Below are positions 2 to 23,154 of a DNA stretch of 23,154 bases, one piece after another. The stretch is taken from positions 1-23,154 of the IMG/VR virus record IMGVR_UViG_3300027861_000202. One strand, written 5' to 3'. Each line of letters opens with the position of its first letter. The stretch's first letter is position 1. Position numbers and translations under genes: made by a program. The notes beneath the pieces were generated by a model that made no database searches, was not told the DNA's origin, and saw only the letters and a program-made list of their open reading frames with translations. Source of the DNA: a virus.

Positions 2-934
2 AACACAACAGCTTTAGGTGAGATTATTAAACCTGAAACAACAATTTTTGTTAGATATAGGGTTGGTGGTGGACCATCTTCAAATGTGGGGCCAAACATT
101 ATAAACAGTATTGGTTCTACTATCGTAAATATAAACGGACCATCACCAGCAATAAATCAAACGGTTAAAAATTCATTAAGAGTTAATAACCCAATACCAG
201 CAATTGGTGGGGCAGGAATACCTTCAGTAGAACAAATAAGACAACTAACTAAATATAATTTTGCTTCACAAAATAGAGCGGTAACAATAAAAGATTATAA
301 CGCTTTAATTGGTAAAATACCTGGTAAATTTGGTTCACCATATAGGTACTTAGTAACAGAAGAACAAAATAAAATACAAGCCTACATATTAGGGTTAGAC
401 TCAAGTGGTAAATTAAGTAACCAATCATCTAACACACTAAAAGAAAATATAGCCACATGGTTATCTGATTATAGGATGATAAATGATTATGTTTTAATTA
501 GGGATGGTAAAATAATAAATTTAGGTTTTGATTTAGATTTATTTATAGACAAACTAGTAAATCAATCAGAAGTAATAAATAATGTTATAAATAGTATTAA
601 AGAATATTTTGACATTAAAAAATGGGAAATGGGTGATAATGTTTATATGGCACAATTAGTAGAAAATATTAATAATGTTGGTGGTGTGTTAAATGTTATA
701 GATATTCGTGTATATAATTTAATAGGTGGTAATTACTCCTTAAATCAAACAAACCAACCATTTATACCCGCTTCACTAGATTTAGCCACATCAACCTTCA
801 ATAACGCTAAAAGAATTGATTTGGGTGAAGATTACGCTTTATTCGGAGACCAAGACTCTATGTTTGAAATTAAAAACCCAGCAAGTGATATAAAAGTTAG
901 AGTAAAAAGAGCTTCGACAGTAACAGAATCTTAA
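2..934 (+). CDS. Baseplate wedge protein, T4 gp6 / baseplate-J-like (5' partial)
   Basis: The reading frame is open from the left edge, so the N-terminal part lies outside the window; 310 residues remain. An in-frame ATG-less stretch upstream of the first possible internal start encodes VRYRVGGGPSSNVGPN, which belongs to the protein, so the gene is truncated by the window and does not begin inside it. The pattern [RK]Y-x-V-GGG-x-x-x-NV, then NNPIPAIGGAG-x-P-x-V-x-x-IR and F-x-S-QNRAVT-x-x-DY-x-ALI, is characteristic of T4 gp6 and related baseplate-J-like wedge proteins. In T4, gp6 forms the inner ring of the baseplate and holds the wedges together in the virion. Full-length relatives have roughly 500-700 residues, so about half is present. 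It ends in TAA one base before the next ATG, consistent with co-translation. Family assignment is from recognisable motifs; the role follows from the family. Confidence 0.72.
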   Translation, partial: NTTALGEIIKPETTIFVRYRVGGGPSSNVGPNIINSIGSTIVNINGPSPAINQTVKNSLRVNNPIPAIGGAGIPSVEQIRQLTKYNFASQNRAVTIKDYNALIGKIPGKFGSPYRYLVTEEQNKIQAYILGLDSSGKLSNQSSNTLKENIATWLSDYRMINDYVLIRDGKIINLGFDLDLFIDKLVNQSEVINNVINSIKEYFDIKKWEMGDNVYMAQLVENINNVGGVLNVIDIRVYNLIGGNYSLNQTNQPFIPASLDLATSTFNNAKRIDLGEDYALFGDQDSMFEIKNPASDIKVRVKRASTVTES

Positions 935-7938: not shown

Positions 7939-10377
7939 ATGCCTAGAAAAGTAGTACCTGGTTCAATAACAGAACCATATAAAATAGGACAAGGTGATTT
8001 TTCACCTAATTTAGTGGGACAACAGTTTACACAAGGTAGTACACTATTCACATTAGGTAATTTTGCTATAACGACTAATACTAGTGGTTCTGGAATCAGT
8101 AAAGTTTATAATACAGGTTCTTTTTCTGAGTCCTACTCATTAGAAACACTAAATTTAACAGAACAAGATTCCCAAACACTTTCAAACGAGTCAATAAAAA
8201 TAGTTTTAAACCTAGACCCAACAAACTTAGAAAGATTTGTGTATTTTGGTAGTTTTTATGAGTTTATTTCAGCAACAATAAAAAGTATTTTATTAAAATG
8301 GAAAGGTTCACTATATGTTAACATTTTTATCCCTACAGACGAAACTCAAACACCAAGGAATACAATTTTAAATTATAGTTATGATAGTGTTAATAACAAG
8401 TCATACTTTAAAATACCAACCTCAACAATAATAAACAATTTCGCTTTGTTTTATCAGTCAGAATTTGGTGGTGAAAGTGATGAAAACCAAAACCCATTAT
8501 TTAACCCCCAAGATAATTATGGGGACATATATAACCTTAACACAAATTTTAATTATTACCAACTAAGTAATGTTTTTGGTGATTTTTATATAACAAACTT
8601 TACTGGTAGTACAAAAACAGACCCTTACATATACCTTGAAGTTAATGATAATGTGTGGCCACCATTAGAATCTATTGGTTTTGGTTCTTACAATTACCAT
8701 ATAAGACCAAAAGAAGAAATACTAAACAAATACTTTTTTAATCTGTTAGATGAGTTTGAAAAACAAGTTTTAAATCAATTAACCACACCACAATACACTA
8801 TTAATATACAATCACCTAAAAAAACAGATAAAGGTAATATAATACTATCTCAAAAAAAATTAACATGGCCTACATCTGATGGTTATAATTTGGATAACGG
8901 TGGACCGGAATTCCAAAATTATATAACAGGGTGGTTAAATGAGGCTAAAAATTTCGATGAAATTAAAACAGATTTAATTGCTAGAAGATTTGTTACAGGC
9001 TCAATCATAGAATTTGATACTGATGGTGGTGGTAATGAAGTTTACGGTAGAAAGGTTAACAAACTACTGAGAATTTATGGTAGGGAGTTTGATGAAATTA
9101 AAAAATACATAGATGGGATATCTTTCGCTAGAATAGTAACTTATAGTAAAAAAGATAATACCCCTGATGAATTAGTTAAAATTTTAGCTAGTGAAATGGG
9201 GTTAGATGTGTTATTAAGTTTTTTCGATAACAATCTTTTCCAAGACGTACTACCAGGTAATACAACACAAGAAGGCTATGGTAACCTACAAAATGTACCA
9301 TTTTCCGGTTACTCAAGAAACTTATCACCAAAAGAGATGGATGTTGAACTATGGAGACGTTTAGTTATAAACGCTTGGTGGTTATTTAAATCTAAAGGTC
9401 ATAGAAAAGTTTTAGAATTTTTCTTAAGTCTATTCGGTATCCAAAATTGTGTTATAACTTTAGATGAGTATATCTATATAGCAGAAAACGCACCATTAGA
9501 TGTAGAAAAAACCATAGAAGATATCATAAAATATAGTGACAATGATGTGGGTCTACCTAACACAGTATCACCAGTAATTCCTGACCCTACAAACACTAGT
9601 GATATCAATATTAGTGATTATCCATTGGATATATACGGTTTCCCTAGGTTAGCAACTAATTCACCTGGTTACTATTACCAAAACAACGGTTTTTGGTATA
9701 ATGGTGGTAATTTATCGGAAACAGGTAATAACCCACACATAGGCCCATATGATTACGGTAAAGCTTATTTAGGTGCTCTTGAGTGTTTTATTGAAGATTT
9801 TGAAGGTATAACAACGGGTACAACCACTTTTAATACAATAGATAATTTATTTACGGATTATGAAAACGGCACTATAGAAAACGGTTTAAATAATTTTGGA
9901 CCTGACTATGCTGAAATAATGAATGGTACAAATAGAGTTAGTGGTGGTATTAATTTAATTTCTGCTGGAGCTGACACAACATTATCATATGGTGATAGTG
10001 AACAATCCTTTAGACTTTTATTTAACGTAAACGACTGTATAATACCATGTCCTGAATTATACATTAACTACGGTAATGGTGTTATTTTTATTGGGCAAAA
10101 TTTTGGTAATTCAATAAATATAACACTAGAACAATTCCCAACACTCTTTCAGGAAAATACGACACCATTAGTTGAAGGTTTAAATATAACAGAAGTATGT
10201 TGTTCTCAAGCAGGAGGGTATTATTTACCACAACAACAAAACGACATACCTTTAGCTGAAGATGTTTTTACTATACCAGAGTTGTTTGACCAAAATAATG
10301 CTTTAGGTCTACCCCAACCACCAACCCCTAGAACAGTTTGTTGGTGGTGCCCCCAACCAAAGTACTATGTGGTTTAG
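7939..10377 (+). CDS. Baseplate tail protein with P2 gpI-like region; 0-frame product of a probable -1 frameshift gene
   Basis: An 812-residue reading frame starting ATG after ataaataa. Residues about 375-500 carry the best match to the Tail_P2_I / gpI group: IYGREFDEIKKYI followed by a helical stretch, then WRRLVINAWWLFKSKGHRK and a final helix ending FGI. In that family a K-[SG]-KGT-x-x-A/V motif in the same place precedes the last helix. P2 gpI sits at the baseplate edge and connects it to the fibres. The N-terminal 370 residues and the C-terminal 300 residues (including NNPHIGPYDYGKAY near 600) are additions. The tail holds one TEVCCSQ repeat unit (nt 10198-10203), of the same kind found repeatedly in the next frame. 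It ends in TAG at 10375-10377, the only non-TAA stop in the window, next to a frameshift-like site, so translation probably also continues into the following frame. Confidence 0.68.
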   Translation: MPRKVVPGSITEPYKIGQGDFSPNLVGQQFTQGSTLFTLGNFAITTNTSGSGISKVYNTGSFSESYSLETLNLTEQDSQTLSNESIKIVLNLDPTNLERFVYFGSFYEFISATIKSILLKWKGSLYVNIFIPTDETQTPRNTILNYSYDSVNNKSYFKIPTSTIINNFALFYQSEFGGESDENQNPLFNPQDNYGDIYNLNTNFNYYQLSNVFGDFYITNFTGSTKTDPYIYLEVNDNVWPPLESIGFGSYNYHIRPKEEILNKYFFNLLDEFEKQVLNQLTTPQYTINIQSPKKTDKGNIILSQKKLTWPTSDGYNLDNGGPEFQNYITGWLNEAKNFDEIKTDLIARRFVTGSIIEFDTDGGGNEVYGRKVNKLLRIYGREFDEIKKYIDGISFARIVTYSKKDNTPDELVKILASEMGLDVLLSFFDNNLFQDVLPGNTTQEGYGNLQNVPFSGYSRNLSPKEMDVELWRRLVINAWWLFKSKGHRKVLEFFLSLFGIQNCVITLDEYIYIAENAPLDVEKTIEDIIKYSDNDVGLPNTVSPVIPDPTNTSDINISDYPLDIYGFPRLATNSPGYYYQNNGFWYNGGNLSETGNNPHIGPYDYGKAYLGALECFIEDFEGITTGTTTFNTIDNLFTDYENGTIENGLNNFGPDYAEIMNGTNRVSGGINLISAGADTTLSYGDSEQSFRLLFNVNDCIIPCPELYINYGNGVIFIGQNFGNSINITLEQFPTLFQENTTPLVEGLNITEVCCSQAGGYYLPQQQNDIPLAEDVFTIPELFDQNNALGLPQPPTPRTVCWWCPQPKYYVV

Positions 10378-11270
10378 ATTATTATAACATAGTACCCGCA
10401 TCACCAACATTTACACAAAGACAGGTAGGTGATAATGAATCAGATGGTGACAAAGACGTTACTGGTTGTATAGACCCACAGGCTTTAAATTATAATCCAC
10501 AAGCAACAATTTCTTGTGGACCTTCAGGACCTTATACATTAGATTTAGGTGGACAACTAACATCTGGGTGTTGTGTTAAAAATAACACCATACCAAACCC
10601 TGAAGGACCTGAAACTGATTTAGAAATAGCTCCCATTCCTTGTACAGGGTTAATATCACAAAATTTAAATCAAGAGTACTTTATTGATGGAAGTGCTGCT
10701 AGAGAAGAATGTTGTACACAACAAGTTATTGGTTCACCTGTATCATTTATTGGTGGGGTTTGTATACCTACCCCTATTGAAAACTCACCCTGTAACCCAG
10801 AACAGATAACTTTAGGTACTGATGGTGTTGTAGGTGGGATAAATGAAGAACAATGTTGTAATATAGATACAGTAGGGCAACCTGTTTTTTGGGATGGTTT
10901 TAGTTGTAGATTGTTAGACGAAAATTTATGTGTTATTTTAACAAATGATAATCAAAATATTACAAATGAAGAATGTTGTAGTTTAAAAGGTGGTTATTTA
11001 GGTACTGATTTTAACGGTAATGTTATTTGTATTCAGAACACCAACCAATCGGGTGAACCAATCGGAGACACTAATGAAACACCGGTTTGCCCTGAAACAT
11101 ACCTACTAACATTAACTGAAACTATTATTAGTAGTGATACAGGTGATTACTCACTACTTTCAGACTCTACAGGACAAGTAGTTAGCCAAGAATGTTGTAG
11201 TAGATATAATGATTTGGTTGGTGATAGTGAGTCTTGGTATTATGATATTAATTTAGGTGGTTGTGTAAGA
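10192..11270 (+). repeat. Degenerate ECC protein repeats spanning the frameshift junction
   Basis: Codon pairs for adjacent cysteines occur at 10198, 10710, 10854, 10974 and 11193. They are preceded by Glu, Val or Gln and followed by about 12-30 residues and a further single Cys (for example EECCTQQVIGSP, EQCCNIDTVGQP, EECCSLKGGY, QECCSRYND). After the junction the spacing is 48, 40 and 73 codons. The first unit is in the 7939 frame and the rest in the -1 frame, which supports the two frames being one protein. The repeats are divergent at DNA level, so they are old duplications. Confidence 0.6.
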
Positions 11271-11924
11271 CAAATTGAAGAAATAAACTATGTTGCGACT
11301 AGATACCAATTAGTAGAGTCCTTTTTAGGTGAGGTATCTTTCTTTCATGCAGGTTCTGATTTAGGTATTTATAGTTTATTAGAAAGAATATTCTTAAAAA
11401 TAACTAAACTAACTATAAATGGGGTCGACTATTTACAAACAGTACAAACGCCAGGAACAGTTATAGACCCAACAGTTAACCCACCAGACGAATGGAATAG
11501 TGTTTTATTCTTACAAAAAGTATTTAACGATTTAGGGTTAACTAATTATAAAGCTCAATTACCTGGAACACCAGCAAATATAGCTACACCAACTAACACA
11601 GTAGGTTTAGAAACTGACGATTTTAAAGAATATGGTTTTTATATAATTGGACCTAAAGGTGATACATTTGAAATAGATGTTGATTTTTATACAGCCTCAA
11701 CACCACCACCAAATGGACAATTTGTATTTAATTGGTTTAGAGAATCTTCATCATTACTTGGTGACCCTAATAACCCTAGGTTTATACCAGCGGAACCGGG
11801 TTATGATGCCGATAACACAATCTCACCAACAAACGAGAGTTGTTTTACAATAACAAAATCACCTTACGGTTCAGAACCAGAACAGTGTTATCCATACACT
11901 TTAGGGCCAAGAACTTATGAGTAA
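10338..11924 (+). CDS. Cys-rich C-terminal extension of the 7939 gene, read by -1 frameshift (no ATG of its own)
   Basis: A long open frame with no ATG anywhere in its 528 codons. Only TTG/TTG/GTG/GTG codons at 10338-10349 could start it, and these lie inside the upstream gene without an A-rich leader. Joining the frames at the C5 run (10350-10354) gives WWCPPTKVLCGLDYYN, a smooth continuation, and a product of about 1328 residues. The content continues the upstream theme: a GCIDPQALNYNPQA module (Cys at nt 10467), then four [E/Q]-x-CC units (nt 10710, 10854, 10974, 11193), each followed by G-x-x-C or a similar turn. After these comes a non-repetitive C-terminal domain (nt about 11300-11924) with IFLKITKLTINGVDYLQT and a Gly/Pro-rich end. 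The first 100 residues after the junction are paralogous to the N-terminus of the 11939 gene. The likely role is a fibre- or receptor-facing extension of the baseplate protein (inference). If not frameshifted, it would be a separately initiated gene or a frameshift pseudogene. Confidence 0.62.
   Translation: MLVVPPTKVLCGLDYYNIVPASPTFTQRQVGDNESDGDKDVTGCIDPQALNYNPQATISCGPSGPYTLDLGGQLTSGCCVKNNTIPNPEGPETDLEIAPIPCTGLISQNLNQEYFIDGSAAREECCTQQVIGSPVSFIGGVCIPTPIENSPCNPEQITLGTDGVVGGINEEQCCNIDTVGQPVFWDGFSCRLLDENLCVILTNDNQNITNEECCSLKGGYLGTDFNGNVICIQNTNQSGEPIGDTNETPVCPETYLLTLTETIISSDTGDYSLLSDSTGQVVSQECCSRYNDLVGDSESWYYDINLGGCVRQIEEINYVATRYQLVESFLGEVSFFHAGSDLGIYSLLERIFLKITKLTINGVDYLQTVQTPGTVIDPTVNPPDEWNSVLFLQKVFNDLGLTNYKAQLPGTPANIATPTNTVGLETDDFKEYGFYIIGPKGDTFEIDVDFYTASTPPPNGQFVFNWFRESSSLLGDPNNPRFIPAEPGYDADNTISPTNESCFTITKSPYGSEPEQCYPYTLGPRTYE
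10350..10395 (+). promoter_or_regulatory. Candidate -1 ribosomal frameshift site: C5 run plus 9-bp stem-loop
   Basis: In the 7939 frame the codons are TGC-CCC-CAA over a run of five C (10350-10354). Seven bases later a perfect 9-bp inverted repeat begins: GTACTATGT at 10362-10370 and ACATAGTAC at 10387-10395, with a 16-nt loop that contains the 0-frame TAG. A prolyl-tRNA on CCC at 10351-10353 can re-pair with CCC at 10350-10352, which moves the ribosome to the -1 frame, open for 1.5 kb. A slippery run, a short spacer and a stem-loop is the standard layout of -1 frameshift signals. The site lacks a full X-XXY-YYZ heptamer, because the A-site codon CAA does not re-pair, so it would be a P-site slip. 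A one-base assembly loss in the C run would produce the same frame change. Confidence 0.5.
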
Positions 11925-11938
11925 ATATTTAAAGATAT

Positions 11939-14437
11939 ATGGCACAAGAAAATGAAGGTATAGGTATTGACCCCGACAAAGATATTTTTGGGTGTACTGA
12001 CCCAACAGCAGCGAATTATAATGCATTCGCAACTCAAAGTACTGGACCAAACGGTCCTTATACCGCTGGGGCTTGTCAAGGTGGTGCAGCACCTGGAACC
12101 ATTTGTTCAGGTGAATGTTATAAAACTACATCAACAGGTGGTGGTGAAGGTCCTGATTTAGATTTAGACCCAAACCTAGAAATAATTGACTTATTTAATT
12201 GTCCACAAACAAGTGAGTTAACTATAAGTACTGAAACTTTCATAGTTAATGGACCTGACGGTCAAAGTTTAGGTATTGATTGTTGTACGGAATCCGTTGT
12301 TGGTTCACCAGTAACATTAGTTACAATAGGTGGTAAACTTAATTGTATTTTAAATCAAAATCCACCTTGTCCACCTATAGAATCAATAGCCATAGCAGAA
12401 GACCAAACAACAATAATAGGTATAAACTCAGAAGAATGTTGTACACAATTAGGACAAAACCAAAATTTTAATACAACATGGGATGGAAAAGATTGTTTAA
12501 TAATAAATCAAAGTGAGGATTGTACTTTTACCGAGTTTGTGGTCGAAGCACAATCAAGTAACCCAAATATCCCACAAGGCTTTTTACAGGTATTAGGTGT
12601 TAGTGAAAATAATAGAGAACCTATACCATTAACTAACCACCCTGATTGTTGTACTAGTGATAACGTAGGTTTTGATGTTATATATAATGAGGACCTAGGT
12701 TTATGTTTACAACCGTCACCAACACCACAACAACCCCCAACAACGGTAATAACATTAAACGAAAACCCACTAGAAAATAAAGAGTGTGATGATTTATTAG
12801 TTTCTGTTAAATTATATTTTTCACAACCACCCGAAGATTGTTTGTCTGAAACCGAGATTACAGCTTTTTTAATACCAGATAACCCATCTTTTACTGTTGA
12901 ACAATTAGGTATTTTTACATCAGAATCAGATGGCTTCAATACTTGGGTAGATTTAGGTGCTAGAATTATCATACCCAATGACGATGATAGTCAAACTAAT
13001 AATCTTAGTAGTTTTGATTTACAACTAGCATTACAAGGAAATTTACTCGGTTGTTGTGATTACGACATAAGGATAGACAATATAAGGGTTGATTGTTTTA
13101 ACGAAGAAGATAGGATTTTTTATCAAAACAGTAGTTGTCCTGGTTTTAACCTAAAAAGAGTTATTGATAATAAAAAATCTTGGGTGTACAATCCAGGTAC
13201 AGTTAATATTGGTAAATCTAATGATGATAATATTGATAGAAATCAAGGTGACAAAGGGTTATTAGAAAAATTTGGTTTTATTAACAGAACTTTCGCTCCA
13301 AGTGCTGACGCAGACTTACCATGGAGGTATACAGATTATTACGAACAATCAAATATAAGGGAACCACATAGTAAAGCTGTTGTAAACAGTAAAGAAATGG
13401 AACTCACATTTAATATGTGTGGTCTGTGTTGTATTGAACCAAGTCCATGTCCAGCTGGATACACTTTAAGTGCGGGTACAGAAACTTGTTATAAAGAAAC
13501 AATTGGTTGTCCTGATGGGTTTAGATTATCTGACGGTATATGTATTAGTGGTGAGACTTGTGATTGTTTAAATATTGAATGGTCACTTTCAGGTGGTACT
13601 AGTGGGGCAACTTTAAATACACATTTTGTTGCGACGATAGATGGTAAAAGAGCTTGGATTTTTGATGTAAGTGGTGATACACATTCAATAGAATACCAAA
13701 CCGTTGAAAATAGTTGGTTTATTTTCCATTCTTTACCAGGTAGTGGTAAGTCGTACCAATACGCATCTACCACTGAATGTCCAACGTCCACATTAGTCGA
13801 ATGGACTGATGTTGGAACATCACCAGGTTTCCAATTTACTGGATTAACAATAACAGAAGGTATATGTACAGGAACAACAGCTACCACTATAAACACCCTA
13901 GAAACGACTAATTCAGGTTCTTATTGTTTAGAAAAAGTAAGTTTATTACAATTAGAAGATTACAAAAAAACTTTCCAAAGTTTTTGGGTTAGAATGATTG
14001 AACAGTTTGTTCCAGCGACAACAATATTTGTTTCGGGTGAAAAATGGTGTAATAATGATGAGTTAATATGTACAGAATTTGAGGAATGTGATTATGATTA
14101 TGAATATGTTGAATCTGAAATAACAGTAATTAACTATGGTACAGACTTCTCACCTATCGCAACAGGGACTACTAATAACGGGGGTGACTTAACAGAAGAA
14201 AATGATAGTGATACAGTTATAGATAATGATTCTGGTGGTACACCTAATGATTCAGATGATGGACCAATATTTGATGACGGTACTACAGTAATACCAACAC
14301 CAGACGATAGTAATTCACAAACAATAGTTGATAGTGAAGAACCTTTTAGTAACACTAGAAACCAAACATTACAAAATGAAGTTAATGTTTATAACACCAT
14401 ATTAACAAATGGTGAACCACAAATAGTATTTGAATAA
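11939..14437 (+). CDS. Cys-rich repeat fibre-like protein, paralogue of the preceding extension
   Basis: An 832-residue protein starting ATG after aaagatat. It opens with FGCTDPTAANYN (Cys19) and a GPNGPYTAG turn, closely parallel to the GCIDPQALNYN and GPSGPYTL segments of the preceding frame; both then run through an acidic linker (GPDLDLDPN) into a CP motif. ECC-type units follow at nt 12281, 12437, 12647 and 13052. Around residues 494-540 lie Cys-Pro-x-Gly units (CPAGYTLSAG, CPDGFRLSDG) ending GETCDC, like short EGF-type disulfide repeats. A compact beta domain follows, then a helical stretch FWVRMIEQFVPATTIFVSG near 690, and a low-complexity Asp/Ser/Thr/Gly-rich tail that ends in an Asn/Gln helix. 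The role is probably a tail-fibre or adhesin component; there is no export signal. It ends with a TAATG overlap. The family is not named. Confidence 0.6.
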   Translation: MAQENEGIGIDPDKDIFGCTDPTAANYNAFATQSTGPNGPYTAGACQGGAAPGTICSGECYKTTSTGGGEGPDLDLDPNLEIIDLFNCPQTSELTISTETFIVNGPDGQSLGIDCCTESVVGSPVTLVTIGGKLNCILNQNPPCPPIESIAIAEDQTTIIGINSEECCTQLGQNQNFNTTWDGKDCLIINQSEDCTFTEFVVEAQSSNPNIPQGFLQVLGVSENNREPIPLTNHPDCCTSDNVGFDVIYNEDLGLCLQPSPTPQQPPTTVITLNENPLENKECDDLLVSVKLYFSQPPEDCLSETEITAFLIPDNPSFTVEQLGIFTSESDGFNTWVDLGARIIIPNDDDSQTNNLSSFDLQLALQGNLLGCCDYDIRIDNIRVDCFNEEDRIFYQNSSCPGFNLKRVIDNKKSWVYNPGTVNIGKSNDDNIDRNQGDKGLLEKFGFINRTFAPSADADLPWRYTDYYEQSNIREPHSKAVVNSKEMELTFNMCGLCCIEPSPCPAGYTLSAGTETCYKETIGCPDGFRLSDGICISGETCDCLNIEWSLSGGTSGATLNTHFVATIDGKRAWIFDVSGDTHSIEYQTVENSWFIFHSLPGSGKSYQYASTTECPTSTLVEWTDVGTSPGFQFTGLTITEGICTGTTATTINTLETTNSGSYCLEKVSLLQLEDYKKTFQSFWVRMIEQFVPATTIFVSGEKWCNNDELICTEFEECDYDYEYVESEITVINYGTDFSPIATGTTNNGGDLTEENDSDTVIDNDSGGTPNDSDDGPIFDDGTTVIPTPDDSNSQTIVDSEEPFSNTRNQTLQNEVNVYNTILTNGEPQIVFE
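12275..13060 (+). repeat. ECC protein repeats in the 11939 gene
   Basis: Adjacent-cysteine units at nt 12281 (IDCCTES), 12437 (EECCTQL), 12647 (PDCCTSD) and, more divergent, 13052 (LGCCDYD). Intervals between the first three are 52 and 70 codons. Each unit has a following single Cys after a W-D-G, G-G-K or D-L-G turn (for example TWDGKDC). They correspond to the units in the -1 frame of the preceding gene, so the whole block was probably duplicated. Confidence 0.6.
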
Positions 14438-16038
14438 TGTGTATACTCTGTAAAAAAACAATAACAAACTTACCAACGGTAGACATTAACCAATCAATAC
14501 AAACAGATGTTGATAGGTCAGGACTTTCCAATATCTACAATATAAGTAATACGGTTAATTTTTGTAACGAAGAGTTTAAACAACCTCTTTACTATATGGA
14601 TGGTACTGTTAAAGCTACCACTGGGTACACAACAACAGCTTGTAGTGGTGTAACTACAGCAACAACATATTCCATATCAGGGTGTTCGGCAGTTTATAAT
14701 CTATCGGAAACAGATAGTTTTGATATTACTTTTAATATAACAGGTAATACTGAATACACTGGTTATACCGGTAGTTTTTGTTACCATACTTTTGATTTAG
14801 ACCAACTAAATAAACAATTAGACTATGTAACACAAAATGATTCCGTGTTAACAGATTGTTTTACTTTTTCAACAATAACAGGTAACACTATAGTAGACAC
14901 TATTAATAAAGGCCAACTTCCAGTAAAAGATGCACAATATTTCTTAAAAGATTATTCTAAATTTAATACAAGAAATTGCCCAACCAAATTATTAATAAAT
15001 ACATTTAATCTAAGTACTTACCTAAAAGAAGATTTGTTTTCAGAAGGTTGGTATTTTATTACTGTAACTAACCCTGACAAACCACAATTAAATAGAAATT
15101 CTTTATCTAATTTAGTTAATGATAGTATATTAAGAACAGAAAATGTATTCATAAAAGATGGACAAACAACTATATTTAAAATTAATGGTATACCATTAAA
15201 TAATAAAATGATTGTTTCAGTTAATGGTGTACAACTAACTGAAGGAGCTGATTGGGTAAGTTCTACAGATAATGTTGGTTTAATAGAGTTTGTTTCTGGT
15301 TATTTAGACCCACAAAACGATATTTTAACTGTTACTTATTTAGATTTACAAAAAAGTACTGAAGATATTTTTAATCTAAATGAAGATTATTTAGAAATGG
15401 ATGCTTTTATTGTTTCTGGAATTACAAATGATGTTGTTTATTCAGGAGCTTCTAGACCATCTGTTAATTATAACACAATTAAATCTAGACAAGAACTACT
15501 AACCACCCAACAAATAAAAAGTGGTTCTTACGTTATTTTTGTTATAAATGGTGTCACTATGACAGAAAACGTAGACTATTATAGAAGTAATAGTGACGAT
15601 AGAAGATTAATAATGGACCCTAAAACCATAATTAGTGTTGGTGATAGTATTTCAGTGTTTTATTTAACGGACTCTTCTAGTGAATATTTAGATTTAGGTT
15701 TCTTCAGAACATTAAAACCAACACTTAACTGGTACGTACCAGAAAGTTATGACCAATATCTAAGTAAAAACGGTAAATTTTTATTACAAATAACAACTAA
15801 AGGTGACGATAACTTCCAAAGTCCTATACAACAAAAGCTTGTTGACTTTACACAAAGACAATCTTTTTATTCACAAGAATTAGACGAACTACCAACAAAT
15901 CTAGGACAAAACTTTTTATTTAGAGTATATTTTTTTAAGAATTACCCTATATTATTTGGAAATGAAATTACAACTAGAAATGTTAGTGATACTGGAGCTT
16001 TCGAAGTTAACATAAACTACTCTAAAAATAGTTATTAA
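14437..16038 (+). CDS. Fibre-like protein with two NGV beta modules
   Basis: A 533-residue protein coupled to its neighbours by TAATG overlaps at both ends. The N-terminus has a CxxC (MCILCKK) and a Thr/Tyr/Cys-rich region to about residue 135. Two repeats of a phage fibre module follow: at about 249-305 (VNGVQLTEGADW, ending D-I-L-T-V-T-Y) and at about 365-411 (INGVTMTENVDY, ending GDSISVFY). The pattern V-[FI]-[VI]-NG-V-x-L-x-x-G-x-DY, a variable turn, then GD-x-[IL]-x-V-x-Y is widespread in tail and neck fibre proteins of T4-like and marine phages. The last 120 residues are beta- and Gln-rich, with FLFRVYFFKNYP near the end. A fibre or baseplate accessory role is likely from the modules. 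No signal peptide or membrane segment is seen. Confidence 0.62.
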   Translation: MCILCKKTITNLPTVDINQSIQTDVDRSGLSNIYNISNTVNFCNEEFKQPLYYMDGTVKATTGYTTTACSGVTTATTYSISGCSAVYNLSETDSFDITFNITGNTEYTGYTGSFCYHTFDLDQLNKQLDYVTQNDSVLTDCFTFSTITGNTIVDTINKGQLPVKDAQYFLKDYSKFNTRNCPTKLLINTFNLSTYLKEDLFSEGWYFITVTNPDKPQLNRNSLSNLVNDSILRTENVFIKDGQTTIFKINGIPLNNKMIVSVNGVQLTEGADWVSSTDNVGLIEFVSGYLDPQNDILTVTYLDLQKSTEDIFNLNEDYLEMDAFIVSGITNDVVYSGASRPSVNYNTIKSRQELLTTQQIKSGSYVIFVINGVTMTENVDYYRSNSDDRRLIMDPKTIISVGDSISVFYLTDSSSEYLDLGFFRTLKPTLNWYVPESYDQYLSKNGKFLLQITTKGDDNFQSPIQQKLVDFTQRQSFYSQELDELPTNLGQNFLFRVYFFKNYPILFGNEITTRNVSDTGAFEVNINYSKNSY

Positions 16039-19000
16039 TGCAAAATAAAAGTGTTAGAATAAGGACAGACTTAGGCGATAAAAATTTAATGGTAGAGTTG
16101 AACCAAGACTTTGATTTTTTAGAAATACTAAGTTTAAAGATATCCCAAGAAGATTTATACAACACCTTTTGTGCTGACTATGGTGTTTTGGTTGGTAGGG
16201 TTATAGCTAATAAAGGCTTCGGCGTACCAAACGCTAAAGTATCTATTTTTATTCCTGTTACAGATGAGGGTGAGAGAAATGGGTTAATTGAACAACTATA
16301 CCCATTTAGAGATGTCACAACTAAAAATGATGAAGGTTATAGATATAACTTATTACTATCTGAAGCAACTTGTGATTTAAACACCCCAGTAGGAACCTTC
16401 CCAACAAAAGAAGACGTTTTAAATAACGACATTCAACTAGAAATATTTGAAAAATATTATAAATACACTACTCGTACAAATGAAGCTGGTGATTACATTC
16501 TTTTCGGTGTACCAACAGGACAACAGACAGTACATATAGATGTAGACCTAAGTGATATAGGTTCAATATCTTTAAGACCTTATGATTTAATTGAACAAGG
16601 TTTACCCAAAGAACTATTTGATGGTTTTACTAGATTTAGGTCTTCAGAAAATTTAGATGAACTACCACAATTAAAAGCACAAAGTAAAAGTGCTAATATA
16701 GTACCGTTTTGGGGTGACACAGATAAATGTGAGTTTGGTATTACCAGGACCGATTTTGATACGGGTGTTGAAATAGTCCCATCATCTATTTTTATGGGTT
16801 CTATTTTTACTGATACTAAAAAAAATTCTTTAAATAAAAGATGTAACCCAAAAAATGACGCTGGTGAACAATGTGAGTTAACTACTAGGGCAGGTTCCAT
16901 AGACATACTAAGAGTTGTTTATGATGATTTAGAAAGACCAACTGGTATAGAAAGTTTTACTACTAGAGCGGGTAAAGATGTTATAGATGATGACGGAACT
17001 TATACTTTTAATTTACCTATGTATTATGATAGAGTTATCACAGATGAGTTTGGTAACTTAATACCCTCATCAGAACCCGGTGTTGGTATTGCAACAAAAG
17101 GTAAGTATAGATTTAAAATAAAATTTAACGAACCTTCTTTAAGAAGAAAATTTACTACAGCAAGTTTAATAGTACCATCTTTACATAAATTTCACGGGGG
17201 GACACTTGGAACAGAACAACAAAGATGGACTACCGATATATCACAATATGACGATGCTAATCAGGCGAATATCCCTGGCGGAGACCCCCTAGATATTATT
17301 AACAACCCCAACGTTACCCCAGTAGTACAAGACCCAAACAATCCATTACCAAAAACAGTTAGTAGTGATTTAGATTTAGATTTTCACACATTTGAGTGGA
17401 AACAAGTATACACATTGTCACAGTTCATTAAAAAATATAAAAGAGGTTCTAATAGATTTAGTTTTATTGGTCTAAAAGGTTGTGATGAATGTGATTATAA
17501 TAATTACTTTCCTTTTACTACAGCAATGAAAAAAGCTAGTTTCGCTTTTTTCATACAGAAATTAGTAATAAATTTAATATCTTTTTTCTATAAAATAATT
17601 ATCATTTTAGGTAACTTAAGGATATGTTCTTATTTAAGATTTACTAATGATGGAAAATGTAGACAACTAGCTAATTTTGCACCATTTAGATTTTTAGCTG
17701 ATTTTTTAGCCCCTAATATATTATTAGAATGTGGTGATGATGTTTATACTATAGACCCATATTGTGGTGGGTTAGAATCTTGTACTTGTAATGGTAACCC
17801 CGTAATAACAGGTAATAATACTGGTAATGAACCTTGTTGTCCTAAAGATAATGGAACCGATTGTGATACGGGTGCTTGTTTAAGTTTTAATTTTTTCGTA
17901 CCAAACGAAACAAATTGTGTATCGTTAAACCAACTAGAAAATTGGAAGTGTTGTTCTATATATGAGTCAGCTAAAGAAAATAAAGCAATAAAATTTACTT
18001 TCTTTGATGCGTGGTTAAATGGTTCAGCTTATCTATTCCAATTCAAAAGTAAAACCAAAATTAAAAACGATGGTACAATTAAGAATAAATTTTGTGGACC
18101 TGGAAGTACAAATATAGGTGGTGATAATTACGCTGGATACAATGCATTTTCAAGTTTTTTTGTTGGTGATGAAGAAGCTAAATACTTACAGAATACTTGT
18201 AACGATGGTAGGTGTTTAATTTTAGGTCCTTCAGATAACCCTGACGATAGAAATTATGTGGGGGGAGTTGATTCAGGGACACCACAGATAAGGGTACCCC
18301 TAAACACACCAGGACTACCAAACGGAGCTAACGACTCCAAAGAATACCTTTATTGTAATTGGGTATCATCTACAAAAATAGTTAGTGTAGGTAGAATAGA
18401 AATGTGTGATGATGTTTTTAATGAAATTAAAAATTGTATAAGTACTAATAGTGAAAATACCGCAGGAAATACAGTATTTGATTGTAATATAAATGATTTA
18501 AGATTAGGTGATAAAATAAACCCATATACAGGTGATAACTTAGGTGAACTAAGTCCATACAACATACCAACAGCAGCTTCAGGTATAAACCCACCACAAG
18601 TAATTAAAATAGGTACGGGAGGTGAAAGTGGTTTTGACAGACAAGAAACAACTAAAAAATTAGATGAGTCCTCATTTGAAGACCCAAAAGATGTCTTTAT
18701 TTATTTATTAAGACAAACAAATTGTAATTTAGACAAATTGTTTACTAATGCAGGTAACCCACAATGTCATGAAAGGGAATTAGAACAAGAATATAGAGAC
18801 CCTATAAGTGAAGTATCTAAAGAACATAACACAGTGGTTACAATACCAGTAGAAATCCCTACTGGTGGTTATGATACAGATAACCCATCTGTTTGGGATG
18901 TTACAGGTAGTTTCACAAATTTTGACCCTGATGGTGTTAATGGTCCGTTTGCTATTGATACATTATTAGAGGATAGGTATAACCCTAACATACCCAACTC

Positions 19001-19136
19001 CACCTATAGTGTGGGTAACGTTAATTATTACACAAACCCTTATATAGATGTTAAAACTAATATGCCATATTTTTATTTTGGTTTAATACCAGGTAAAACA
19101 GCAATTAACAAATATAGAAAGAAATATTTAGTATAA
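16038..19136 (+). CDS. Large structural protein with carboxypeptidase-regulatory-like Ig domain and internal hydrophobic segment
   Basis: A 1032-residue protein started by the ATG of a TAATG overlap. Residues about 48-176 read as a carboxypeptidase-regulatory-like (transthyretin-type) beta-sandwich: GVLVGRVIANKGFGVPNAKV at one end and TNEAGDYILFGVPTG-x-x-TV at the other, with an insertion between. Residues about 502-527 are strongly hydrophobic (FAFFIQKLVINLISFFYK, then IIIIL), long enough to span a membrane, with Lys on both sides. A Cys-rich region follows at about 580-645, with CTCNGN, CC, CDTGAC and KCC motifs. The C-terminal 250 residues include YLYCNWVSSTKIVSVGR and a helical F-I-Y-L-L-R-Q-TN segment. 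The N-terminus has no signal peptide. Virion protein by context; the Ig-like domain suggests surface binding, and the hydrophobic segment could be buried in a trimer core or used at the host envelope. The family is not otherwise recognised. Confidence 0.6.
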   Translation: MQNKSVRIRTDLGDKNLMVELNQDFDFLEILSLKISQEDLYNTFCADYGVLVGRVIANKGFGVPNAKVSIFIPVTDEGERNGLIEQLYPFRDVTTKNDEGYRYNLLLSEATCDLNTPVGTFPTKEDVLNNDIQLEIFEKYYKYTTRTNEAGDYILFGVPTGQQTVHIDVDLSDIGSISLRPYDLIEQGLPKELFDGFTRFRSSENLDELPQLKAQSKSANIVPFWGDTDKCEFGITRTDFDTGVEIVPSSIFMGSIFTDTKKNSLNKRCNPKNDAGEQCELTTRAGSIDILRVVYDDLERPTGIESFTTRAGKDVIDDDGTYTFNLPMYYDRVITDEFGNLIPSSEPGVGIATKGKYRFKIKFNEPSLRRKFTTASLIVPSLHKFHGGTLGTEQQRWTTDISQYDDANQANIPGGDPLDIINNPNVTPVVQDPNNPLPKTVSSDLDLDFHTFEWKQVYTLSQFIKKYKRGSNRFSFIGLKGCDECDYNNYFPFTTAMKKASFAFFIQKLVINLISFFYKIIIILGNLRICSYLRFTNDGKCRQLANFAPFRFLADFLAPNILLECGDDVYTIDPYCGGLESCTCNGNPVITGNNTGNEPCCPKDNGTDCDTGACLSFNFFVPNETNCVSLNQLENWKCCSIYESAKENKAIKFTFFDAWLNGSAYLFQFKSKTKIKNDGTIKNKFCGPGSTNIGGDNYAGYNAFSSFFVGDEEAKYLQNTCNDGRCLILGPSDNPDDRNYVGGVDSGTPQIRVPLNTPGLPNGANDSKEYLYCNWVSSTKIVSVGRIEMCDDVFNEIKNCISTNSENTAGNTVFDCNINDLRLGDKINPYTGDNLGELSPYNIPTAASGINPPQVIKIGTGGESGFDRQETTKKLDESSFEDPKDVFIYLLRQTNCNLDKLFTNAGNPQCHERELEQEYRDPISEVSKEHNTVVTIPVEIPTGGYDTDNPSVWDVTGSFTNFDPDGVNGPFAIDTLLEDRYNPNIPNSTYSVGNVNYYTNPYIDVKTNMPYFYFGLIPGKTAINKYRKKYLV

Positions 19137-19183
19137 AAAAAAATAAATCAATGTTATTGATATTTATAAAAAAAACATAAAAC
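19137..19183 (+). promoter_or_regulatory. Longest intergenic gap; small AT stem-loop and A-rich leader
   Basis: The 47-nt gap is the only one above 15 nt in the window. It is almost entirely A/T. It holds a 6-bp inverted repeat, ATCAAT at 19147-19152 and ATTGAT at 19156-19161 with loop GTT, followed by an A-rich stretch up to the GTG start. No T-run follows the stem on the + strand, so it is a poor intrinsic terminator. A promoter for the fibre cluster could lie here, but I see no convincing -35/-10, Bacteroidota -7 (TAnnTTTG) or T4-late motif on the + strand. An ATG at 19151 opens only a nine-codon frame ending in TAA at 19178. Confidence 0.3.
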
Positions 19184-21211
19184 GTGAGTTATATAGATAA
19201 AAATTCTGATATTGTTGTAAGTGCTAGACTTACAGATAGAGGTAGACAATTACTGGCCAATGGAGCTTTAACATTTAATTCTTTTAAATTAGGTGACTCT
19301 GAAATAGATTATAGTACTTTAGGTGCTACATATGATGTTACACTAGAAAATATTCTTAGAGCAAAGGCCGAACAGCCTGAAATGAAAACATTTCTACTAC
19401 CTTTAACAACTACACCAGCATCACAAGCTGGGGTTGGGTTAACAACTGTTACCGCTTTAGAGTTATCTACAGTATCACAATCACCTGAATTAGGTTTTTT
19501 TAAAACACAAACAGGTTCTACAGTCTACACGGCCTACACAACCAACTACTCAGTACAATCGGATACAATGATTCCTTTAGGTAGTTTAACAGGTTCTACA
19601 GAGTTTGTACCTGTTAGACAATCATCAACATACGGTTCAAATGTATACGAACCAACCTATGGTGATTTTATGTTGGTTAAAATGAGTAACGATGAGATAA
19701 GTGCTACACAAACAAATACTGTTATTGAGGAAGACTTACCAGTACCTTACTTATGGTATAAGGTACAAGGTACTTCAGGAACTTTAGCTGGAAATGATTT
19801 AAATGTAGAGTTAGATAGAGATTTCGCGTATTTCCCAAGTTACGCTGGAGGTAATGAATGTTGGGCAGCTTTTTATCCTAGTGGTAGAACTTTTGATTCA
19901 AGTAGTATTTATAGTGGTGGTACTGTATGGAACCAAAACAATGTTTGGTCTTATGATATGGCTGGTGTTTCTGATGGTCTAGGTACTTATGAAACATTTC
20001 CTAGTTATGGTTCTGAAAACTTTATTGGTTCAAAAGAATATTTTGGATACACATCTGAAATAACTAGTAATTGTAATGACTATAGGTCTATAGCTATAAT
20101 TCACTACACAAACGAACAAACTTGTAATAACCAATCAGAAAAAAATTACGGACAATCATTATATATAGATACTACGGTACCAGCATCACCAATAGTTAAC
20201 TTACCCACATTAATGTGGCATAAAAGAGCTTTCTCAGGTTCAGGTACAGCAGATATGATTGGACAATCTTTTTCTGGTATAAGTACAGAAAAATATGTTA
20301 CAATAAGTGGTGTTACTACAGAGGTAAGGTATTTTGATTTAGCTGACGAACAAAACAATGTTATAGGTAGAATATTCCCGGACCAACAAGTAGTAACTAT
20401 AGACGACCAAGAGGTTGTTGCAGCTTTATCTTATAAATCAAACAGGAATTGGACACTACCAACACTAGGTTATGGTTTACAAACAGTTACAGATGGTTTA
20501 ATGGGTCAGACTCAAGAACTATACGTAACTTATCTACTAGAAAGTACATCAGGTTATACAACAGGTATTCACACACAAGATTATACATGTGTTCTATTAA
20601 CAGAAGAAGAATGTCCTGATAACGCTAAAAAAGATGTACAAATCACATTCCCAACATCAGAATTGTCTTATATGTCAATTAGTGGTGGTACAGGATTTGA
20701 AGCTGACAAATTCAAGATAATAGCACAAAGAGTTAGTACGGGTGAAAAACCAACTTCAGACGGTTGGAAAATAATGGACTTTACTAATGAGATAACTAAT
20801 CATACTACTGGGTCTACAATTAACCCATTAAACTTAGAAAACACAACTTTTACTATTACAAAAAATAAGTACTTAAACGGAACTAATTATCTTTTACACG
20901 ATTACATAAATATACCAACAACTTTAGAACCTAATTTACTACAATTTGGTGACGAAAACTTTTTCTTTGGTAACTTTGAATCAGCTGGTGTGTCGAAAAA
21001 ATGGAGAACAAAATTCCAAATAGTAGTACCACCAACACAATTTAATACAACAACAAACCCAACATGGGTAAATAGTGGTCAAAACCCACATATATCTGAA
21101 GTTGGTATATATAGTACTGGTGGTGATTTAGTTGCTATAGGTAAAATGAATTTACCGATAGAAAAAAATAACACAACGACTGTGATAATTGAAATAGCTT
21201 TTGATTTATAA
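19184..21211 (+). CDS. Tail-fibre-like protein with tail-collar-type N-terminal module
   Basis: A 675-residue protein started by GTG at 19184 (GTG-agt-tat), after an A-rich leader. The next in-frame ATG is near residue 67 and would remove the conserved N-terminus, so GTG is preferred. The N-terminal 47 residues contain LTDRGRQLLANG-x-L-x-F-x-x-FKLGDSEIDY. This is similar to the start of the two following genes and to the pattern LT-x-x-G-x-x-x-[IL]-A-x-[AG]-x-x-G-x-L-x-F-x-x-[MF]-x-[IVL]-GDG of P2 gpH-type tail-collar fibre N-termini, which attach fibres to the baseplate. The rest is Thr/Ser/Gly/Tyr-rich beta sequence, with a C-terminal part containing NPTWVNSGQNPHISEVGIYS, a motif reminiscent of P2-type fibre domains (E-[IV]-G-[IV]-Y). 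The role is probably a host-recognition fibre or its attachment segment. It overlaps the next gene by one base. Confidence 0.62.
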   Translation: MSYIDKNSDIVVSARLTDRGRQLLANGALTFNSFKLGDSEIDYSTLGATYDVTLENILRAKAEQPEMKTFLLPLTTTPASQAGVGLTTVTALELSTVSQSPELGFFKTQTGSTVYTAYTTNYSVQSDTMIPLGSLTGSTEFVPVRQSSTYGSNVYEPTYGDFMLVKMSNDEISATQTNTVIEEDLPVPYLWYKVQGTSGTLAGNDLNVELDRDFAYFPSYAGGNECWAAFYPSGRTFDSSSIYSGGTVWNQNNVWSYDMAGVSDGLGTYETFPSYGSENFIGSKEYFGYTSEITSNCNDYRSIAIIHYTNEQTCNNQSEKNYGQSLYIDTTVPASPIVNLPTLMWHKRAFSGSGTADMIGQSFSGISTEKYVTISGVTTEVRYFDLADEQNNVIGRIFPDQQVVTIDDQEVVAALSYKSNRNWTLPTLGYGLQTVTDGLMGQTQELYVTYLLESTSGYTTGIHTQDYTCVLLTEEECPDNAKKDVQITFPTSELSYMSISGGTGFEADKFKIIAQRVSTGEKPTSDGWKIMDFTNEITNHTTGSTINPLNLENTTFTITKNKYLNGTNYLLHDYINIPTTLEPNLLQFGDENFFFGNFESAGVSKKWRTKFQIVVPPTQFNTTTNPTWVNSGQNPHISEVGIYSTGGDLVAIGKMNLPIEKNNTTTVIIEIAFDL

Positions 21212-21435
21212 TGGGGTTCCTATCTAAAGATACAAATGAGGTTAAATTAATTTTAACACCTTACGGTAAAACTAAATTTTTATCAAAAGGATTTAAAGAT
21301 ACTTTTAGATACTTTAGTTTTTCTGATGATGACATTATATATCACTTATGTGTAGAGCCACAAGGAATATTAGAAATAACAGGTAGTCATAAAAGTTCTA
21401 CAACACAAAAAGAACCTAGATACAAAACAACATAA
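21211..21435 (+). CDS. Small protein consisting only of the shared N-terminal fibre module
   Basis: A 74-residue protein, started at a TAATG overlap. Residues about 9-57 align with the N-termini of both flanking genes: VKLILTPYGKTKFLSKG, then F-x-YFSFSDDDIIY, then EPQG-x-x-x-ITGSH. The closest match is the downstream gene (LTNYG, FKYFSLSD, IYYVETDP, NITGSK). It stops soon after the module, so it is either an independent docking or plug protein or a remnant of a full-length fibre gene whose distal part was lost. The frame is clean and ends in TAA four bases before the next ATG. No other function can be read. Confidence 0.6.
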   Translation: MGFLSKDTNEVKLILTPYGKTKFLSKGFKDTFRYFSFSDDDIIYHLCVEPQGILEITGSHKSSTTQKEPRYKTT

Positions 21436-21439
21436 AATA

Positions 21440-22582
21440 ATGGCAAATAATGTAAATTTAAAATTAACTAATTATGGTCTACGTAGATTAATGTCTATTG
21501 GAGCTGAACAAAGTTTTAAATATTTTAGTTTATCCGATATGAACGAAATCTATTATGTAGAAACTGACCCTAATTTAAACGACATAATGAACATAACTGG
21601 TTCTAAAGCTTTATTTACAGCTAGAAAATCTTGTGTAGACGCAGTACCAACAACAGCTCAAGTATCTCCCCCAACAGAAACAACTATTGATAGGACACAA
21701 CAAAGATGGTTAGTTAATTACTATAAATCAAATTGTGGCACCCAAGACTATACTAAATCTAATCTAAACGTAACTATTAATCTACATGAGTATTTTAATT
21801 GGTTAGAAGGTGTTTCATCAACAACAGCTTATACAGAATCACTGGAGACAAGTTTAAAAATAATACAAGGTGTTTATTTAAACAAACAAGAACAAAATTT
21901 CGTTGATAAGACATGGTCAAATATAGATACTACAAGTAGGTTCGTTCCTTTATATGACTTTGTCACCAATAAAGATAGAGAAAACTATTTAAAATTTAAT
22001 AGTAAATACATCCAATACAAAGGTGAACAAAGAACACAAGTAGATAGGTCTTTCGATAGATTTTACACAAGTTTATTATTAGGTTTTGGTGTGAATATTG
22101 AAGGCAGTTACTACCTAGAAGGTCATAACTCTTACGTTACATTCAACCCACCACAATTTGGGTACGTAGTGAATGGTAAAACTAATTTTGTTGGTTTAGA
22201 AACAATAACCAACACTGATAATTATAAAGAAATTACACCAGCTGTGATTATAGGGTCAAACCCAACAGACTTATATTATTTAAATGAACCCAATAATTTT
22301 AGAACATTAGATATAAATGGTTTTATGGGGCAGGCCATATGGGGTTATGTTAACACAAAAGGACAATCATTAATAAAAGGTATGATTGAAAAAGCTAAAA
22401 ATCATATAGAGTTTTATTTTGAGGAAACTTCTTTCGATAAATGGGAACTACCTATTAACCTTAGATTAAGAATACCTGAAACAGGTGGGTTAGACGTTAT
22501 AGGTGGTAATATAAGTTATAATTTTGTTTACGACCCTAACGCAACCACATTAGGTTACGATAATATTTTAATAACTAACTAA
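21440..22582 (+). CDS. Tail-fibre/baseplate-associated protein with shared N-terminal module
   Basis: A 380-residue protein with ATG after taaaata. Residues about 4-56 carry the shared module (VNLKLTNYGLRRLMSIG, F-x-YFSLSD-x-N-E-IYY, NITGSKALF). The remainder is unlike the neighbours: a mixed region with WLVNYYKSNCG and a stretch with INLHEYFNWLEG, then DRSFDRFYTSLLLGFGVNIE and a Gly-rich segment NGFMGQAIWGYVNTKGQSL. It ends with strands (LPINLRLRIPETGGLD). There is no signal peptide or membrane span. Its position beside two genes with the same module suggests that all three products dock at equivalent sites. I do not recognise the C-terminal domain; fibre assignment is by module and context. 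Confidence 0.58.
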   Translation: MANNVNLKLTNYGLRRLMSIGAEQSFKYFSLSDMNEIYYVETDPNLNDIMNITGSKALFTARKSCVDAVPTTAQVSPPTETTIDRTQQRWLVNYYKSNCGTQDYTKSNLNVTINLHEYFNWLEGVSSTTAYTESLETSLKIIQGVYLNKQEQNFVDKTWSNIDTTSRFVPLYDFVTNKDRENYLKFNSKYIQYKGEQRTQVDRSFDRFYTSLLLGFGVNIEGSYYLEGHNSYVTFNPPQFGYVVNGKTNFVGLETITNTDNYKEITPAVIIGSNPTDLYYLNEPNNFRTLDINGFMGQAIWGYVNTKGQSLIKGMIEKAKNHIEFYFEETSFDKWELPINLRLRIPETGGLDVIGGNISYNFVYDPNATTLGYDNILITN

Positions 22583-22584
22583 TC

Positions 22585-22884
22585 ATGACAACTATATACT
22601 ATAGAAATAATACAGACTTTCTTAACAGAAATAGATTTAAGGACAAATTAGAAAATAACAGTAATTCAAGTTATAACGCTTTCCTTTCACCAACTTCTGT
22701 AGACCTTTACTATAAAACTAATGATAGGGTACAGACAATAAATTTCCAAATGGCAGACTTTATTCCTTTATCAGTTAACGATATTGGATTGAGACCTGGT
22801 AGTTTTATTGTGGGTAATGTTGATAATAATAGAGTTGTTATAAATAATAATAATAATTCACCTAGTGTGATAACAAGAAACTAA
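22585..22884 (+). CDS. Small phage protein of unknown function
   Basis: A 99-residue protein starting ATG two bases after the upstream TAA. The N-terminus is Asn/Arg-rich (MTTIYYRNNTDFLNRNRF). The middle has a beta-like segment around FQMADFIPLSVNDIGLRPGS, and the C-terminus contains an Asn run encoded by an AAT repeat near 22843-22857. No cysteine, signal peptide or membrane segment is present. It continues the string of closely spaced genes and is followed by an A-rich leader for the next one. The family is not recognised. Confidence 0.5.
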   Translation: MTTIYYRNNTDFLNRNRFKDKLENNSNSSYNAFLSPTSVDLYYKTNDRVQTINFQMADFIPLSVNDIGLRPGSFIVGNVDNNRVVINNNNNSPSVITRN

Positions 22885-22895
22885 AAAAAAATAAA

Positions 22896-23154
22896 ATGAG
22901 TTCATTAGTATCGACAGAAAGTGTCAATCTAGAAAACACAATAGAGGAAAGTAATTATTTTTACGCTATACCTGGTGATAAAATAGAGTGGACATATATA
23001 CCATCTTCTACAGACGTAAACTTTAAAACAAATGTTTGGTCACACTTTTATGCTAATTTAGGTTTATATACAAACGAAATTGCTGATAATTACAACATTA
23101 ATTTTAGTCAGGGTGGTTATTTAAATACATCTTTAGAAAAAATATATGAAGCTT
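22896..23154 (+). CDS. Phage protein of unknown function (3' partial)
   Basis: Starts with ATG after the leader aaaaaaaataaa and stays open to the right edge, giving 86 codons. It begins MSSLVSTESVNLENTIEESN and continues with aromatic-rich sequence (YFYAIPGDKIEWTYIP, then TNVWSHFYANLGLYTN). There is no signal peptide. The short spacing, shared strand and A-rich start context match the genes before it, so it is most likely the next member of the same structural operon. Too little is present to identify a family. Confidence 0.55.
   Translation, partial: MSSLVSTESVNLENTIEESNYFYAIPGDKIEWTYIPSSTDVNFKTNVWSHFYANLGLYTNEIADNYNINFSQGGYLNTSLEKIYEA

Follow-up and report, generated by a model that had tools for sequence, protein, structure and literature searches.

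The window analysed here comprises all 23,154 bases of the virus record IMGVR_UViG_3300027861_000202, a fragment from an uncultured huge phage. Near its end lie four genes designated A, B, C and D, the last of which is cut by the end of the record. Genes A, B and C are consecutive and share an N-terminal module, as the initial annotation had proposed. Judged from sequence profiles, this module is the N-terminal half (N-half) of a domain remotely related to the collar domain PF12571 of the P2 fibre protein gpH. The C-terminal half (C-half) was found at the C-terminus of A and in gene D; this partner piece and gene D as a further member of the set are additions to that annotation. In the relatives, a large group of uncultured huge phages, the ordinary arrangement would be two consecutive genes with the halves at both ends, a body between them, and termini packing as one domain. 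In the lineage of the window, A would keep this fused form, and the second gene would exist as the pieces B, C and D. It is moderately probable that the module is one half of a docking domain and that, the second gene being split, the half-domain of D is completed in trans. The members of the array are as follows.

19184..21211, plus strand: gene A, 675 amino acids, start codon GTG, with collar-like halves at both termini and a body of about 570 residues
19184..19318, plus strand: N-half of A, residues 1–45, modelled with a strand at 12–16, a helix at 18–25 and a strand at 33–37
21035..21208, plus strand: C-half of A, residues 618–675, the counterpart of 'RELGLYDDAGTLIAVAN' in P2 gpH
21211..21435, plus strand: gene B, 74 amino acids, a stand-alone N-half whose ATG overlaps the stop codon of A by one base
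21440..22582, plus strand: gene C, 380 amino acids, an N-half followed by an unrelated body in which the profile finds no C-half
22585..22884, plus strand: small gene between C and D, 99 amino acids, with no match to the C-half profile
22896..23154, plus strand: gene D, 86 codons present before the window end; the full-length gene in relatives has a body and the C-half only

The first 70 residues of the three products were compared pairwise by BLOSUM62 local score against 5000 shuffles. For B and C, the score was 105 (z 21) and no shuffle scored as high, and these two are homologous outright. The scores of A with C (40, with 28 of 5000 shuffles as high) and of A with B (36, with 46 as high) were weak alone; thus, the homology to A rests on the profiles of its relatives. 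The loci were gathered by scanning viral contigs, which gave 13 loci with A as the query and 2 with C. A further scan, in which a relative's second gene served as the query, gave 66, including two from contigs already in the set. A profile built from the modules of A only found C in the window and in all nine C-bearing related loci (L003–L011), and B in the window and in four of those nine. These matches were in register and ranked above the first unrelated open reading frame (ORF), but those within the window were weak (E 0.04 for C and 0.3 for B); at E 5, matches were lacking for B of L006–L010 and for the second gene in each of L013, L014 and L015. On iterating the profile, the earlier-missed members were recovered, and B and C of the window were matched at 8.6e-17 and 4.5e-14, respectively. 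Over 21 modules, columns M1, T17, G20, D38 and Y43 (A numbering) were invariant. The ITGS stretch, noted at the outset as common to B and C, recurs in L003 and L006, with INGS or ISGS in its place in L004. In the module tree, B and C grouped together at 94/90, just short of the tool's star; as they are nearest each other, a duplication in the window's lineage is suggested. The annotation had read the genes as duplicated pieces carrying different distal bodies, and the grouping agrees with the duplication; neither B nor C shows a second half.

The kinship of the module was assessed by comparing profiles. In P2 gpH, two like segments, 'T-x-x-G...AVGDG' and 'RELGLYDDAGTLIAVAN', lie in the single N-terminal domain PF12571 (Phage_tail_fib, DUF3751; also of R-pyocin fibres), which spans about 150 contiguous residues and is followed by the fibre. 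The present proteins resemble PF12571 in that an LT-x-x-G ... GD segment comes first, a second segment RE-x-GIYD-x-x-G-x-LIAVG follows, and the profiles align both halves in order; unlike in P2 gpH, the halves are 300–600 residues apart or in different genes. Both A and the second gene of the relatives, of about 400 amino acids, end in a conserved segment like 'ISEVGIYDxxxNLIAIGK', and in A this C-half ('SEVGIYD...LVAIGK') lies about 570 residues beyond the N-half. A P2 collar profile was prepared from gpH and 13 further fibre starts and aligned to the whole A family with no position given. The two best alignments fell on the C-terminus (40.6) and the N-terminus (36.4), compared with 23.8 for the best of 300 column-shuffled decoys; for 16 fused second genes, the corresponding scores were 44.2 and 35.1, with decoys of at most 25.5. 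The pooled N-half matched the collar profile with a profile–profile E of 1.4e-6 (score 36.5; 300 column-shuffled decoys at most 20.6), and the pooled C-half of A, the fused genes and D matched at 1.2e-7, above all 300 decoys.

The specificity of single sequences was determined using 64 ORFs of at least 180 amino acids from 7 chosen loci against the gpH profile. The A, fused and D genes, 14 in number, took the first 14 places of the 64, each via its C-half; the gap was narrow, the last of them standing at E 0.029 and the next, unrelated ORF at 0.034. In the case of PF12571 itself, all four tested members of the P2 profile were matched, along with 1 of 22 sequences in A4 (4 C, 2 third genes and 16 fused second genes) at a sub-threshold 0.046. 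Single members also weakly matched PHROGs named tail fibre or tail collar fibre, as well as families of unknown function (best 5.4e-4). As the Pfam cut-off is never reached, this is remote kinship to PF12571 and not membership. The P2 gpH-type collar likeness proposed by the annotation thereby holds for the pooled module and not for B or C taken singly. Searches of PDB sequences with the module, P2 gpH alone, the gpH profile and the A profile gave no credible chain, so no solved PF12571 structure was available for direct comparison. In P2-like fibres, the collar domain occupies the base and presumably connects the fibre with the baseplate, a contact that is itself given as a suggestion in PMC6363177. 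By this likeness, A and the second protein would sit on the baseplate by collar-like domains made from their two ends. The interpretation in the annotation is partly supported, with the correction that the module is only half of the domain, the other half being in the C-terminus of A and in D.

The arrangement of the halves was scored in 82 loci (78 contigs), using all forward frames of at least 50 codons and the N-half and C-half profiles. Two genes with both halves in each were found in 57 of the 82 loci. The arrangement of the window was found in 12 loci (10 contigs): here A has both halves, two further genes each have an N-half alone, and a downstream gene has a C-half alone. The other 13 loci were cut by an edge (L012, L036, L047, L063, L080, L082 and L083), carried an inserted gene (L031 and L048), or were in pieces or incomplete. 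In these last loci (L050, L052, L054 and L070), it is A or the second gene that is affected, for which frame breaks, from sequencing error or real decay, are the simplest explanation. None of the 82 loci combined a fused second gene with the split set. Using hhalign, D was found to match residues 106–399 of the fused gene, with E 2.6e-11 for the window clade and 6.4e-30 for L013; the match takes in the C-half and not the N-half. B matched the first 47 residues of the fused second gene (8.7e-6), and a C-half profile built without D rows found D at 4.9e-6 and 3.1e-11. In the window, 75 of the 86 residues of D are identical to those of D in L003, where the full-length gene (L003:9667-10836) has a body and the C-half. 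B would accordingly be the N-half and little else, C an N-half with a different body, and D the body with the C-half.

Whole records were also counted. Among 17 virus records, three N-halves were found in all 10 of the split type and two in all 7 of the fused type; thus, no further copy of the module is present at these thresholds in these records, many of which are fragments. In an unrooted tree of A (46 rows), the split types (6 rows) lay on one side of a 100/100 branch, and other long branches were flagged. As the tree has no root, fission and fusion are both possible. On searching phage records by tblastn, A and C of the window gave no match, and A of L016 matched one record, LR756508, a distant huge phage of 484 kb. 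This phage has one clear N-half (5.0e-9) in a frame of its own and a doubtful second match (0.056), and its C-halves end two other genes. Thus, the halves are separated in this distant genome as well. Between these two C-half genes of LR756508 (L179), a PspC-domain protein (1.9e-15) is encoded at 6121–6423.

A different reading, considered rather unlikely, is that the array consists of duplicated docking pieces only, in which each N-half docks alone, the C-half is an independent second element, and B is a free adaptor or cap, with no assembly in trans. C, which has a body and no C-half that was found, agrees with it, as do genes 2 and 3 of L013, L014 and L196, which consist of an N-half with long bodies of their own. 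It is opposed by the members of PF12571, which hold both halves in one domain of about 150 residues (four of four tested), by the model of A, which superposes from both ends on small known domains, and by the number of C-halves, which is two in 16 of the 17 records, the seventeenth having two and a stray match (E 0.008) in a 28-codon frame. The second gene of L013 (10413-13748) encodes 1111 amino acids and that of L196 (4764-7943) 1059, an N-half with about 1000 residues of other sequence, in contrast to the 74 residues of B in all. Beyond the module, no homology was found between the body of C and the third gene of L013 or L196.

The model of A was predicted by AlphaFold from 46 sequences, with a mean predicted local distance difference test (pLDDT) score of 75.7 and a predicted template modelling (pTM) score of 0.73. 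It has a strand–helix–strand at residues 12–37 and its last strands at 597–674. The six best chains by VIA-align were phage or archaeal-virus proteins, five of which are titled tail, baseplate, connector or neck. Their alignments run from residue 11–28 of A to residue 675 and contain 88–139 aligned residues, including 89 on the 107-residue chain 9mt4_K and 139 on phiKZ gp139 (9xpg_D). Since two of the target chains are only 107–108 residues long, the most straightforward interpretation is that its N- and C-terminal ends adjoin in the model of A. The packing of the two termini of A into one domain is thus supported by the model. The span from near the start to the last residue was found with phiKZ gp139, and both ends were likewise covered with the T4 baseplate chain 5iv5_BJ (Z 6.8, 114 residues, 10% identity), the Klebsiella phage baseplate chain 9f4a_A0, the HFTV1 tail chain 9h4p_BD, and the connector or neck chains 9mt4_K and 9c39_K. 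Chain 5iv5_BJ is presumably gp7, and 9f4a_A0 would be its counterpart, as the ranges are alike. The functions of these six proteins differ, and with identities of 8–15% over all matched chains and Z too low, kinship is not claimed. For the matched HFTV1 domain, no role is stated in the available part of PMC12494034. Using Foldseek, no clear whole-chain match of A to the PDB was found; A0A6J5L8D6 from an uncultured Caudovirales phage matched at 2.5e-51 (26% identity, TM 0.72 by query). This protein is related over most of the length of A and is uncharacterised, with no function annotated.

As the annotation had stated, B is essentially the module and nothing more, and it is a conserved stand-alone half-domain by its sequence record. 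The ratio of nonsynonymous to synonymous substitution rates (dN/dS) was 0.05–0.20 (6 pairs from 4 sequences), indicating purifying selection, and the start of B overlaps the stop of A in all four distinct sequences. Scans for B and for C each returned 7 contigs, and the two sets are identical. The conservation and the overlap fit a co-produced subunit. They also make it very improbable that B is a functionless relic in decay, left when the insertion of C disrupted a gene, as its shortness and its site, where the start of the fused gene would be, might suggest; such a remnant is further at odds with the joint occurrence of B and C. The annotation had also raised a system for swapping fibres. 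C and genes 2 and 3 of L013, which have the N-terminus in common but differ in their bodies, would suit such a modular system; however, no direct or inverted repeat of at least 18 bases was found in 18800–23154, and the gene order was identical in all 12 split-type loci. The lack of repeats and the constant order argue against swapping, which is the least probable of the alternatives.

Within the preferred explanation, in which the half-domain of D is completed in trans, B or the N-terminus of C would do so on the baseplate by a predicted binding to D, and the N-half would then act as a small docking subunit of its own. Since one free C-half faces two N-halves, these could partner it alternatively or jointly, and B is favoured over C only slightly as the partner of D. 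Several points weigh against this explanation. B and C are each other's nearest relatives, which makes the positional partner of D ambiguous; in L013, the third gene matches the fused N-half better (9.8e-8) than the second gene does (4.4e-4), and the module tree, being too short, does not decide between the N-halves as partners of D. The split-type sample is small, its 10 contigs including L006–L010, which are alike, and the N-half frame of LR756508 has no ATG, GTG or TTG before the module. In the case of the collar kinship, the profile of B alone gave E 0.0094 (probability 4%), that of the window-clade C no match at the module, and that of the window-clade D a weak 0.0026. The hhalign E-values are single comparisons, with probabilities of 41–64% for the two ends of A. 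The N-half-only genes were absent from the best 22 of the 64 ORFs tested with the gpH profile, the PF12571 cut-off was reached by no member, the window and its record gave no PF12571 match at E 10, and none of the 46 A-family members (A3) matched at E 0.1. As for the model of A, the Foldseek template modelling (TM) scores against the PDB were low, the VIA Z of 6.6–8.1 is a range often reached by models without true relatives, and the VIA ranges give the first and last residue only, so that individual aligned stretches are not visible. Moreover, a diverged second half may be concealed in C, whose model is poor (pLDDT 38.4).

It is possible, with a chance put somewhat below even, that the domain wraps its cargo in most of the group and that B and D form a two-piece fastener in the lineage of the window, with C as an alternative partner. 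More generally, an unannotated pair of proteins conserved across a large group of uncultured huge phages would become a probable docking-domain family. This would explain why one gene is the module only, and the natural comparison of fused and split forms predicts specific protein partners. Assembly in trans, if true, would amount to domain complementation among distinct proteins of the virion. No publication on this arrangement was found by title or the start of the abstract, which does not show its absence from print. A paper on large aquatic phages (PMC12619734) may concern related phages, although no link from it to these contigs could be drawn.

The genomic setting was determined from the remaining genes of the window. 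For A, B and C, scans against Pfam and PHROGs yielded no usable match. By sequence likeness, the array is placed beside the genes of a contractile-tail baseplate by the following feature.

86..934, plus strand: relative of a baseplate wedge subunit (phrog_219, 7e-11)

The gpI-like protein of the annotation corresponds to the gene at 7939; a resemblance of motif exists, but there was no Pfam match up to E 1, and PHROGs gave only an unknown family at 0.049. The upstream products of 812, 528 and 832 amino acids (7939-14437) had no credible Pfam match, and the last two look rich in Cys by eye. The 1032-residue product of the gene at 16038 (16038-19136) contains a carboxypeptidase-regulatory-like stretch (0.0027, below the cut-off).

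Endonuclease-like genes were also observed in or near the arrays of relatives. Homing-endonuclease-like genes lie in or just behind the collar array of three phages (L179 4439-5794, L016 12124-13083 and L011 12947-13786), with GIY-YIG and/or NUMOD matches, the GIY-YIG match of L011 being below the cut-off. In L031, an ORF of 333 amino acids (2862-3863; the same ORF is in L048) stands directly before an intact A gene. Its first 26 codons or so are a diverged copy of the start of the A gene, with 65 of 90 bases equal; behind them come matches to a treble-clef zinc finger and DUF723, and a weak PvuRts1I-like match. An endonuclease-like mobile gene appears to have inserted into the module here.

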